DNA of 64,000 nt, taken from Hyphomonadaceae bacterium TMED5 (lineage in GTDB: Bacteria; Pseudomonadota; Alphaproteobacteria; Caulobacterales; Hyphomonadaceae). Position 1 is the first letter of the stretch. The number at the start of each line of letters is the position of its first letter. The translations under genes were made by a program, and so were the position numbers. The notes beneath the pieces were generated by a model. That model saw only the letters and a program-made list of their open reading frames with translations, did not search any database and was not told where the DNA came from. The DNA lies in NCBI GenBank assembly GCA_002173095.1, contig NHBK01000009.1, positions 310,001 to 374,000 on the forward strand. Reading direction: 5' to 3'. Below, piece by piece: positions 16,850-21,538 of this stretch.

Positions 16850-16937
16850 ATCGGTGAGAGAAACTCATGGGCGGAACCGTGTCAAAACGGGACCGGACAC
16901 TGCTCCAGAACGGTGCACAAATCGGACAGATGACCTA

Positions 16938-19268
16938 ATGGCTCGAAAAGCGCTGAGGCCGGGACAGACCATCGGCCCCTATACAATTCTAGCTGAACAG
17001 TATCAGGACGATGCTGGTGTCACCTATCTGGGTAAGCATCCGAGCGCCTGGGGTGCGCCGCAGGTCTATATCCGTGAGTTCTTTCCGGCCAATATTTCCC
17101 GTCGCAACCGAAACGAAATTGCGCCTGCGCGAAAACTGCTCGCGCGTGAATTTGAGGATGCGCTCGCTCAGCAGAAAGACCGGGTCGATCGCTATCTGGC
17201 GATCAAAGAGCCGGGTCTAATTGGCGGGCTTGGTAAAGTTGAAGAGAACGGAACAGTTTATCTGGTCACTGACTGGCCGGAAGGTGAAAGCCTGCAGACC
17301 ATGTCTGCCCGCGACGGTCTATTGTCGCCGGGCTTTGTCCGTGCGCTTCTCTATGGGCTTGAAGGTGGGTTGACTGCGCTTGGCGAGCAGGGGTTGGTGC
17401 ATGGCCAGATTTCGCCTGAAACACTGCGCCGCCTGAATGATGGTGATGCCAGTGTCACCCATCCTGATCGTCTTGAATATGTCGCCACGATTGGAGCGCC
17501 TGTAAAAGTCGCGCCAATCAATACGCCCTATCTGGCGCCGGAATTTGTCAGTCAGGATTTTGGTCCGCTCGGCCCGTGGACAGACATGTATTCGCTGGCG
17601 GCAAGCTTTTATCAGATGATTACCGGCCTTGTGCCTGCATCTGCCAAGGACCGTATCGATGCGCATGCCGCTGGCGCGGATGATCCGCTCGATATGCTGG
17701 CGCTTGATACCCGTCTGGATGATGATCCGTCGCTTTTTCAGGCGCTGGCTTCTGCATTGTCACTGAAGGCTGAAGATCGTCCTGCCAGTATGCCAGCATT
17801 CATGGGGGCTGCGGCGATTGCGGCCGCTATTGAGGACAGTCCGGAAGAGGCCGCGGGTCTGGAGCCGCGCCCTGCGCTTGGCGGCGTGTCCGGACCGGTG
17901 CGGATTGGTATTGCGGCCGCGCTGGTCGTGCTGCTTTGTGCTGTGTTGGTCCCATTTGTCTTCTTCTCGAACGATGAAGACGTCACACTGGCGCAGAATA
18001 ATCCGAACCCTGCGCATACGCCGCCACCCGTGCCCGCGCCTTCGCGCCAGTCTTTTACCCCGGTTTCAGAACCTACGCCTGATCAGCTGTCGGATGATCT
18101 GGTCGAAGACGATGATATTCCGGAAGATGTTGCCGCGTGGATGCAGGTGGATCAGGAAGACCCGGATGCCGTGCTCGAATTTCTGCGCACGGTTACAGAC
18201 AATCAGACGCTGCGCTCACAGGTGCGATCTCGCTGGATGACATTGGAAGCCTCGGCCTGGGCAGAGGCAAGTGCTGATGGTTCAGAAGATGCGCTGACCG
18301 AGTTTATCGAAACCTATGCGACCAATGTGCCGCCTTTTTCGCGCTTCGGCGAAGAGGCGCGCGCTCAGCTTGCTGACCTGCAACAGACTTCCGAAGAAGA
18401 GCAGGCTGAGGCCGAGCCTCTGGAAGACGAACAGCCTGAAGCAGAAGAAGATACTCCGGTCGTTGATGTAGAGCCTGAGCCTGTAATCGAAACAGAAGCG
18501 GAGGCAGAAGGTGACTCCGCACCGTCGGAGGCAGATTCCACAGAAGGCGCTATTGAAGAAGAACTGCCTGCTGGACCGGAAGACACCGGCCCGCAAATCG
18601 GTGACGTCTTTACTGATTGTGATTCCTGTCTTGCAGTCGAAATCGTCTCTGAAACTCTGGCCGTGGCGCAGGTGGAAACAAGCATATCGGATTTCCGGGC
18701 GTTTCTGACGGCGACAAACCGGTCCGCGCCGACAGGGTGTTTTACGCATGTCGCAGGCAGCCAGTCGATCTGGAGTTATGGTTCATCTGCAAGCTTTGAT
18801 GCGCCGGGCTATGATGTGTCTGATGATATGCCCGCCGTGTGCGTTTCTTTCGATGAGGCGCAGACCTTTGCGCAATGGATGAGTGATCGAACAGGCGAGA
18901 ATTACCGTTTGCCAACAGCTGAAGAGTGGCTGGCGATTGCGGGTGAGGCCGGGTCAGCGCTGATGTCATGCGGTGCAAACTTCGCCGACGAGACGCTGGG
19001 TGCTGAAGACGTGCAGACGAGCCTGTTCAGCTGTTCTGATGGGTCTGCCTTTACGACGTCTCCATCCGGAGATGGCGTGTCAGGCATGTATGGCAATGTC
19101 GCAGAATGGGTGGTGGACTGCGATGAGGGCGATTGTTCCCGGCGTCTGGCCATGGGTGGGTCCTGGGTGTCCGGCCCCGAGCAGATACGAAGCAGTTTTC
19201 GAGAGGTTTTTTCTCCAAATAGTCGTTCAAGCACTTTGGGCTTCCGACTGGTCAGAGAAGTAGAATAG
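16938..19268 (+). CDS. Membrane pseudokinase fused to a C-terminal SUMF1/FGE-like domain
   Basis: The start at 16938 places the kinase-like fold (LRPGQTIGPYTILAEQY) at residue 6; an in-frame GTG at 16854 is possible. The 776 residues read: kinase-like domain (6-290), one membrane span (RIGIAAALVVLLCAVLVPFVFF, about 324-346), a small helical region, an acidic Glu/Pro linker (about 484-550) and a formylglycine-generating-enzyme-like domain (555-775) ending MGGSWVSGPEQIRSSF...SSTLGFRLVRE. Key kinase residues are lost: the lysine is Arg in VYIREFFP, HRD is HGQ and no DFG is visible, while APEF and the WTDMYSLA Asp remain. The FGE catalytic cysteines are not where expected. I infer a transmembrane scaffold or sensor, not an enzyme. 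The TadG-like gene follows on the same strand. Confidence 0.75.
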   Translation: MARKALRPGQTIGPYTILAEQYQDDAGVTYLGKHPSAWGAPQVYIREFFPANISRRNRNEIAPARKLLAREFEDALAQQKDRVDRYLAIKEPGLIGGLGKVEENGTVYLVTDWPEGESLQTMSARDGLLSPGFVRALLYGLEGGLTALGEQGLVHGQISPETLRRLNDGDASVTHPDRLEYVATIGAPVKVAPINTPYLAPEFVSQDFGPLGPWTDMYSLAASFYQMITGLVPASAKDRIDAHAAGADDPLDMLALDTRLDDDPSLFQALASALSLKAEDRPASMPAFMGAAAIAAAIEDSPEEAAGLEPRPALGGVSGPVRIGIAAALVVLLCAVLVPFVFFSNDEDVTLAQNNPNPAHTPPPVPAPSRQSFTPVSEPTPDQLSDDLVEDDDIPEDVAAWMQVDQEDPDAVLEFLRTVTDNQTLRSQVRSRWMTLEASAWAEASADGSEDALTEFIETYATNVPPFSRFGEEARAQLADLQQTSEEEQAEAEPLEDEQPEAEEDTPVVDVEPEPVIETEAEAEGDSAPSEADSTEGAIEEELPAGPEDTGPQIGDVFTDCDSCLAVEIVSETLAVAQVETSISDFRAFLTATNRSAPTGCFTHVAGSQSIWSYGSSASFDAPGYDVSDDMPAVCVSFDEAQTFAQWMSDRTGENYRLPTAEEWLAIAGEAGSALMSCGANFADETLGAEDVQTSLFSCSDGSAFTTSPSGDGVSGMYGNVAEWVVDCDEGDCSRRLAMGGSWVSGPEQIRSSFREVFSPNSRSSTLGFRLVREVE

Positions 19269-19471
19269 TCGGCGTGATCGCTATTCTGGGTTAACCTTTG
19301 GCCGTATCCAGAGTGGAAAAAACGCTTTGATACCGGCTATATGCCAACAAACGGGCCGACAATCTTAATGAGAGATTGAATATACATCATAAAGTGAAGC
19401 GCCGGATTTTCCGAAATCCTGTTGATTTGGCGATAGTTTAGACGCTCGAACTGCTAGTATGAGCCGCCTGA

Positions 19472-21193
19472 ATGAATTCGTTTTTCAAAAATAGATCTGG
19501 CAATGTCGCCATGATTTTTGCGCTTTGCCTGATCCCTATTGTGGTTCTGATGGGCGGAGCGATTGATTTTTCGCGTCAGCGCGGGACAGAGGGCTTTGCG
19601 CAGGACGCCCTTGACGCAGCGCTGTTGGCCATTGCGCCAGAGGCCGCAGGGAAGTCTGAAGGGCAGCTCACTCAGGAAGGCCGCCGCTGGTTTGAAAACC
19701 ACCTTCAGGGCGCCGGCAATATGGATATTGACGGGTTTCGCATCGTCGTTGATGGGGACAATCTCACCGCCTATGTCGACGGCCATGTGGATACCGCATT
19801 TCTGGGGCTGATCGGCATTACGGAAATGGAAGTGCACCGCACAGCGTCGGTCACGATTGGTCTCACCAAGGTGGAGATCGTCATGGTGCTGGATACGACC
19901 GGTTCCATGATGGCAACGCCAGCAGGCCAGTCGCAGACAAAGCTTGAAGCCCTTCAGGATGCTTCGCTCGATATGGTGAACACCCTTTCCGGGCTATCAA
20001 ATGGCGATGGCAATATCGTCATGGGCATGGTGCCGTTCGCGACCTATGTGAATGTAGGTCCGGACAACATCGATGCGAACTGGATGGATACCGATGCGCG
20101 CTCGCCCGTGCATGCCGACAATCTGGTTGAGGGGTTGAACCGTTTCGACCTTTATGAGCACCTTGGATATGCATGGAAAGGTTGCGTCATGGCGCGCCCT
20201 GCGCCGCACGACGTGCAGGATACGCGTCCGCGTACGAGCCGCCCGGAAACGCTGTTTGTCCCGATCTTTCATCCGGATGAGCCGGATTCCCGCTATCGCC
20301 GGTTTGAAGAATATCCGAATAATTTTGTGGATGATGCGACTTCGCTCGGCTCCGGATTTCTGGATATTGGCAACCCTGTAAAATATGGCCTGCCGCTGGG
20401 CGTACTGAGCCTGATCGATGGGCTCTCTAACGGCGCGGTGAATCGTCTGCTGAACGAAGATGACGATGACGACGACGAATGCGAAGATGATGATGATGAC
20501 AATTATGGGCAAGGCCAGGAATGCAATAACGGGATCGGCGCCACGGTTGATGTCTTAAACCCTGCAAACTGGAGTGAAGTAGATACGAACCGCAATTATC
20601 AGTATTACAGCGATGTGACCACGGAAATCGGCCCAAGCTTTGCCTGTGAAATGCCGCCAGTCGTGCCGCTGACCACAAACTTCCAAACTCTTCGCAATAG
20701 CGTGAACTCTCTCACGGCTTCGGGGTCTACCAACATCGCGCAAGGCGTTGTCTGGGGCTGGCATGCGCTATCGCCAAGCGCGCCTCTTCAGGAAGGCGAT
20801 GAATATTCTGATCGCGTGCAAAAGGTGATGGTTGTCCTTTCTGACGGTAACAACGTGGTTGTTGCGCGCGACGGTCACCCAGGCGGCTCTGACTTCTCAG
20901 CCTATGGCTATATGGAGAACGAACGTCTTGAAGGCGTTGATGGCCGGTATGACACTAATGAAATCATGGAGGCCATGGATGAGCGTACACTGCTGGCGTG
21001 TCAGAACGCCAAAGATGCAGGCGTGCGTATCTTCACCATTCGGCTGTCGCTGGAAGATGAGCGGTCTGAAGAATTGCTGACGGCCTGCGCCAGCAGCCCG
21101 GAGGACTTTATTGATGTGCAGGAGTCTGACCGTCTGGATGATGCTTTCCGCCAGATCACGGAGCGTATTTCAACGCTGTATCTGTCTCACTAG
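19472..21193 (+). CDS. TadG-like pilus-assembly protein with von Willebrand A domain
   Basis: A 573-residue protein. The N-terminus NRSGNVAMIFALCLIPIVVLMGGAIDFSR is the TadE/TadG-type class-III prepilin-like membrane segment; the rest is extracytoplasmic. MVLDTTGSM is a MIDAS metal site of a VWA domain, with a later VVLSDGNN strand. A run of Asp/Glu (encoded at 20455-20505) interrupts the VWA region. TadG proteins accompany Flp (Tad) pili, but no other tad gene is present here. The pseudokinase gene lies 203 bases upstream, and no clear hairpin separates them. Confidence 0.82.
   Translation: MNSFFKNRSGNVAMIFALCLIPIVVLMGGAIDFSRQRGTEGFAQDALDAALLAIAPEAAGKSEGQLTQEGRRWFENHLQGAGNMDIDGFRIVVDGDNLTAYVDGHVDTAFLGLIGITEMEVHRTASVTIGLTKVEIVMVLDTTGSMMATPAGQSQTKLEALQDASLDMVNTLSGLSNGDGNIVMGMVPFATYVNVGPDNIDANWMDTDARSPVHADNLVEGLNRFDLYEHLGYAWKGCVMARPAPHDVQDTRPRTSRPETLFVPIFHPDEPDSRYRRFEEYPNNFVDDATSLGSGFLDIGNPVKYGLPLGVLSLIDGLSNGAVNRLLNEDDDDDDECEDDDDDNYGQGQECNNGIGATVDVLNPANWSEVDTNRNYQYYSDVTTEIGPSFACEMPPVVPLTTNFQTLRNSVNSLTASGSTNIAQGVVWGWHALSPSAPLQEGDEYSDRVQKVMVVLSDGNNVVVARDGHPGGSDFSAYGYMENERLEGVDGRYDTNEIMEAMDERTLLACQNAKDAGVRIFTIRLSLEDERSEELLTACASSPEDFIDVQESDRLDDAFRQITERISTLYLSH

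Positions 21194-21463: not shown

Positions 21464-21538
<75 letters not shown>

Follow-up and report, generated by a model that had tools for sequence, protein, structure and literature searches.

The locus analysed here raises the question of what a bacterial membrane protein does once it has kept the fold of a protein kinase and lost the residues for catalysis, and whether the product of the adjoining gene shares in that role. It lies in Hyphomonadaceae bacterium TMED5, a member of Ponticaulis, within a 64,000-nucleotide stretch of contig NHBK01000009.1 (positions 310,001 to 374,000; hereafter the window), and comprises a gene for a pseudokinase joined through one transmembrane helix to a domain of the formylglycine-generating enzyme (FGE) type, followed on the same strand by a gene for a VWA protein with a Tad N-terminus. 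The explanation that we favour, with a probability of roughly 0.45, is that the first gene encodes a non-phosphorylating bitopic inner-membrane receptor, akin to the PpkA/TagR envelope-signalling receptors, that derives from an active kinase–transmembrane–FGE family, is paired with the VWA protein, and has docking as its output. The observations behind this reading are the domain composition, the topology as predicted, the missing catalytic motifs, purifying selection, genus-wide linkage, and intact relatives that are co-encoded with VWA proteins.

By model and profile, residues 1–300 have a protein kinase fold. The AlphaFold2 model, in which the kinase and FGE domains mostly reach high values of the predicted local distance difference test (pLDDT), has PpkA as its top Foldseek match, and its residues 3–298 align with PknA, PknB, and PpkA at VIA-align Z-scores of 23–25; among solved structures, the closest by sequence is the Pseudomonas aeruginosa PpkA kinase domain (E 2.4e-13). 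The score for Pfam Pkinase (PF00069) is just under the cut-off (30.2 versus 31.7 bits). Alignment to the intact relatives L039 and L040 (VIKE/HRD/DFG) fixes the positions of the catalytic motifs unambiguously, with IREF in the window protein at the place of VIKE. The glycine loop, the beta-3 lysine, the HRD aspartate, and DFG are all lost in 7/7 orthologues, which carry HGQ, HGL, HSL, or HGG at the HRD position and HPD, TPD, APD, or APS at the DFG position; further along the kinase half, parts that stabilise the fold are retained (APE and the D.Y.L stretch). With arginine, glutamine, and histidine at the catalytic positions, the kinase half is, to judge from these residues, a pseudokinase that lacks the marks of an active Hanks-type Ser/Thr kinase. 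An earlier note on this DNA had proposed a kinase fold without the lysine, the catalytic aspartate, and DFG, which alignment, profile, and structure matches bear out for all seven members of the genus; the homologues with intact catalytic residues that it had named as contrary evidence do exist, but only as distant ones (L039 and L040). Some unconventional nucleotide-dependent activity might nonetheless persist in the kinase half, in the manner of SidJ, one of the pseudokinases known to have kept an unusual activity (PMC6858067). We consider this very improbable, since every motif is gone in all seven proteins and the replacements at HRD and DFG vary between orthologues, the pattern to be expected where no chemistry is left to maintain.

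Nonsynonymous and synonymous divergence (dN and dS) were compared among three close species (L033, L036, and L038). For the pseudokinase domain, the dN/dS pairs are 0.013/0.52, 0.012/0.53, and 0.010/0.35, a ratio of about 0.02–0.03; the ratio is about 0.05–0.07 for the FGE domain, about 0.14–0.17 for the linker, and about 0.06–0.10 for the VWA protein, and the comparison gene ccmF has a dN of 0.007 over a dS of 0.25. The pseudokinase domain is constrained as much as ccmF and is under strong purifying selection, so that comparison of homologues upholds a kinase half that is without its catalytic apparatus yet retained for a function. The sub-threshold Pkinase score could be taken to signal a decaying gene, an idea that deserves almost no credence, being already contradicted by these ratios and by a reading frame that is open in 7/7 genomes.

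The remainder of the protein is predicted to be extracytoplasmic. The model helix at residues 319–344 coincides with the sole hydrophobic stretch of the 776 residues, and the kinase half contains no cysteine, with all eight cysteines lying in the extracytoplasmic part and conserved across the seven orthologues; this distribution fits a periplasmic, disulphide-bonded domain. The W..A..F..Y repeats of the extracytoplasmic helical region have akin counterparts in the linker of L040. VIA-align returned mostly kinases, and the linker of the window protein was hardly probed for known folds. An in-frame GTG at 16854 would allow a longer open reading frame (ORF) upstream of the assigned start, and the orthologue alignment, which begins at the ATG (MARK...), favours the latter.

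The C-terminal head matches PF03781 (FGE-sulfatase) at 90.8 bits against a cut-off of 23.3. Its sequence match among solved structures is PvdO, second to PpkA for the whole protein, and the PvdO fold aligns over residues 551–775 (VIA-align Z 23.6, 2.1 Å over 201 residues, 30% identity). The copper-binding cysteine pair of catalytic FGEs lies C-terminally, after the GGS motif. The C-terminal motif here, GGSWVSGPEQIRSSFR, is free of cysteine, as is that position in 7/7 orthologues, and on this residue test the domain is not a catalytic formylglycine-generating enzyme. The same pair is missing from the intact-kinase relative L040 (GGSWFSGPKDLRYTAR), from the other FGE gene of the same genome (GGSFAIAAEWLRSASR), and from other FGE-fold relatives. 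The absence of the pair, which the earlier note had pointed out in its SUMF1-like domain and read as a sign of a binding module, is therefore real but not special, being ordinary for the PvdO-like subtype. It could be argued that the head works as a PvdO-type enzyme, such as a periplasmic oxidase, with the pseudokinase as merely its membrane anchor or regulator, given that PvdO is the closest solved FGE-fold relative and that some FGE-fold enzymes without the cysteine pair exist. This appears improbable: at 55.6 bits, the match to the NCBIfam PvdO equivalog (NF051459) is far below its cut-off of 500, biosynthetic genes are absent among the genes common to the orthologous neighbourhoods, and a bare anchor would not need purifying selection over the whole kinase fold. 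A variable protein of a diversity-generating retroelement was also considered and rejected, as the 64-kb window holds no second copy (template repeat) of the FGE-coding stretch. FGE homologues also occur on plasmids (Azospirillum), with no kinase, VWA, or type VI secretion system (T6SS) context in the one annotated case; a Vibrio record was unannotated. Separately, a Comamonadaceae metagenome-assembled genome (L077, 2528–12085) has a stretch in which FGE-domain genes number at least five and probably six, most of them head to tail.

The product of the second gene exceeds the cut-offs of the PF13400 Tad, VWA_2, and VWA profiles, and the residues of its metal ion-dependent adhesion site (MIDAS; D141/T143/S145/T420/D458) are invariant across the seven orthologues, in agreement with the TadG-type VWA protein proposed from the bare sequence. 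The model is of modest confidence (mean pLDDT 54) and shows an insert of ~200 residues that divides the VWA domain; the acidic run that had been pointed out in this insert is present, but its length is not conserved between species. SpaC, Streptococcus sanguinis PilB, and Mfa5 are the top structural matches, with RrgA further down. The prepilin peptidase consensus G/A-X4-F/E is absent (G-N-VAMI-F, with Asn at the cleavage position in 7/7 orthologues), so the protein may remain anchored in the inner membrane. In the three species compared above, the dS of the VWA gene is 0.66–1.13, versus 0.35–0.53 for the pseudokinase and 0.25 for ccmF, which hints at recombination or at a fast-evolving VWA insert.

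Table 1. Coordinates of the features discussed (window numbering, except for the last row).
Feature	Position	Strand	Remarks
Pseudokinase–transmembrane–FGE protein	16938..19268	+	776 aa, bitopic; start ATG 16938
Predicted cytoplasmic pseudokinase domain	16938..17837	+	aa 1-300; PpkA-like; cysteine-free
R46 codon	17073..17075	+	Arg replaces ATP-binding lysine of VAIK; Arg in 7/7 orthologues
HGQ replacing HRD	17400..17408	+	catalytic Asp lost
HPD replacing DFG	17460..17468	+	Pro176 invariant in 7 orthologues
Single transmembrane helix	17892..17969	+	aa 319-344; N-terminus inside (predicted)
Extracytoplasmic helical region	18123..18410	+	aa 396-491
Disordered acidic linker	18417..18581	+	aa 494-548; length varies among orthologues
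FGE domain (SUMF1/PvdO-type C-type-lectin fold)	18603..19259	+	aa 556-774; FGE Cys pair absent
Tad-N-terminus/VWA protein	19472..21193	+	573 aa
Pilin-like module	19493..19855	+	long N-terminal helix aa 8-57; three strands within aa 85-128
VWA domain, first half	19868..20041	+	MIDAS DTTGS aa 141-145
VWA-splitting insert	20042..20656	+	aa 191-395; low model confidence; acidic run 20456-20500
VWA domain, second half	20657..21190	+	MIDAS T420, D458
Conserved nine-gene module (genus g8)	L039 2911-12676; L040 1888-13534		

The pseudokinase–FGE gene is present in all six other Ponticaulis genomes, and the VWA gene comes directly after it in 7/7. The gap between the two genes is 114–204 bp at the loci measured, and no terminator-like site was seen between them on the + strand. 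An RNA element in that gap was rejected because Rfam finds nothing there, the sole Rfam match being a tRNA-Val at 21467–21538. In several species, the gene content changes as soon as the VWA gene ends, with the pair left intact, so the pair has survived rearrangement there. The conserved pairing expected by the earlier note thus holds throughout the genus but not beyond it: outside Ponticaulis the pair was not found, the relatives of the VWA gene in other genera standing without a kinase–FGE gene. A kinase model run against 299 genomes of the order gave strong matches outside the genus in two g8 genomes and one other.

The g8 matches are L039 and L040, two genomes of the same family whose proteins are the nearest full-length relatives of the window protein and are intact in their kinase–transmembrane–FGE architecture. 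Both carry a nine-gene module with two lipoproteins, two VWA proteins with N-terminal transmembrane anchors, an FHA protein, a MotA/ExbB-like protein, the receptor, a PP2C phosphatase, and an acidic protein. The module shares its domain order with the window receptor, the kinase and FGE domains are homologous (about 29–32% identity), and VWA genes adjoin, which makes it a second case of a receptor relative next to VWA genes; it differs in the catalytically intact kinases and in its nine genes, including FHA, ExbB-like, and PP2C. TssC is absent from both genomes, and the module appears to be the equivalent of the threonine phosphorylation pathway in a setting without a T6SS. A defence system was set aside, because the PADLOC hits (PD-T4-6 and mad6) reflect kinases in general, are stronger in the intact relative, and are thus uninformative.

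Several observations weigh against a functional pair. The pair is limited to one genus and its linkage may be plain shared ancestry, the ccm operon that is constantly found on its other side being linked equally well; VWA relatives stand alone in other genera, which indicates that the VWA protein can work without the receptor; the neighbourhood shows no evident gene for a cytoplasmic partner; and the VWA proteins of the g8 module are of a different VWA subtype. The restriction to one genus, the equally good linkage of the ccm operon, and the lone VWA relatives, together with the width of the intergenic gap, speak for two unrelated neighbours whose adjacency is inherited synteny; the VWA product would then act by itself in the envelope or a pilus, in the manner of TadG/CpaL, and the receptor would have other partners. 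A full Tad/Cpa-type pilus locus does lie elsewhere in the genome (L154, G000:C21:221000-240000; its ATPase identified by profile, the rest by the order and sequence of its ORFs), and cpaL as published is an orphan too (PMC12607857). We hold this account to be a serious but doubtful one, as the pair stays together while the content after the VWA gene changes, and receptor relatives adjoin VWA genes in another genus as well. As observations apart, the Tad/Cpa locus has no VWA gene of its own, with VWA/Tad-type proteins encoded elsewhere (the C16 window, C24, and C21:286213), and locus L141 (4420–9901) has three adjacent Tad/VWA genes, two of which (620 and 627 aa) show a MIDAS spacing near the published CpaL value.

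Under the receptor reading, the periplasmic FGE head, a C-type-lectin fold, would be a binding domain, with the periplasmic VWA protein from the next gene as its probable partner, and both proteins may form one transmembrane scaffold. Through the transmembrane helix, the dimerisation or conformation of the receptor would respond to binding or to strain on the VWA protein, and the pseudokinase would relay this change by docking with a cytoplasmic partner or letting it go, with no phosphate transfer. That the FGE head contacts the VWA protein, that the output is allosteric, and that the system senses surface contact or the state of the envelope are inferred. The mechanism is most likely of this kind by analogy with two known systems, PpkA/TagR (a VWA sensor modulated by a periplasmic protein) and EssB/YukC (a recruiting pseudokinase). 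A degraded yet conserved pseudokinase with a defined binding head, an adjacent candidate partner, and intact relatives in a sister genus makes the role of a dead kinase testable by comparison.

Kinase–FGE fusions and bacterial pseudokinases are kinds already known, the latter with little experimental exploration so far (PMC12599244). EssB/YukC of type VII secretion is a transmembrane pseudokinase with degraded catalytic motifs and glycine loop and a non-catalytic role in structure and recruitment (PMC12599244). The Ponticaulis protein resembles it as a bacterial transmembrane pseudokinase with every catalytic motif degraded along with the glycine loop, and differs in phylum, in its extracytoplasmic part, and in having an FGE domain, which EssB/YukC lacks. 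When searched as text, the 2025 review of pseudokinase families in bacteria does not mention FGE, sulfatase, or formylglycine (PMC12599244), and the literature searched yielded no genus-wide conserved, fully degraded kinase that has an FGE head and is linked with a VWA gene.

For the second gene, the nearest likeness is CpaL of Caulobacter crescentus (CCNA_0199), a VWA minor-pilin-like candidate mechanosensor for surface sensing whose gene is an orphan outside its pilus cluster (PMC12607857). Both have an N-terminal helix with three strands, an insert-split VWA domain, and an intact MIDAS; the window VWA gene is likewise an orphan, with the Tad locus elsewhere, and SpaC, PilB, Mfa5, and RrgA are the four matches published for CpaL (PMC12607857). 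The window protein differs in lacking the prepilin site and in being linked to a pseudokinase–FGE gene, and its MIDAS Thr–Asp spacing is 38 versus 45 in CpaL, which would place it in a sister group. We liken it to CpaL and do not claim that identity for it.

The system closest in kind to the whole locus is PpkA/TagR/PppA/Fha of the P. aeruginosa T6SS, in which TagR is an FGE-like periplasmic activator. PpkA senses by means of a VWA domain outside the cytoplasm and is modulated by TagR through its C-terminal domain (PMC3224232). A cytoplasmic PpkA-like kinase fold, one transmembrane helix, and periplasmic sensor parts are common to both; in Ponticaulis, a dead kinase carries the FGE head as a fusion, the VWA domain comes from a gene of its own, the operon includes neither a PP2C nor an FHA partner, and no T6SS was found in the genome or genus. 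A T6SS regulator was rejected on this account, with neither TssC nor TssF in the genome and no TssC in six genus members. The locus, earlier described as an unassigned system, is thus not wholly unassigned, since it resembles the PpkA/TagR pathway in kind. That it is a phosphorylation-free offshoot of the PpkA/TagR type, in which a pilus-tip-like MIDAS VWA protein senses contact or force and a dead kinase signals by allostery in a T6SS-free bacterium, seems unlikely. The locus adds, outside the T6SS, a second setting where genes for kinase-like receptors, FGE folds, and periplasmic VWA domains occur side by side.

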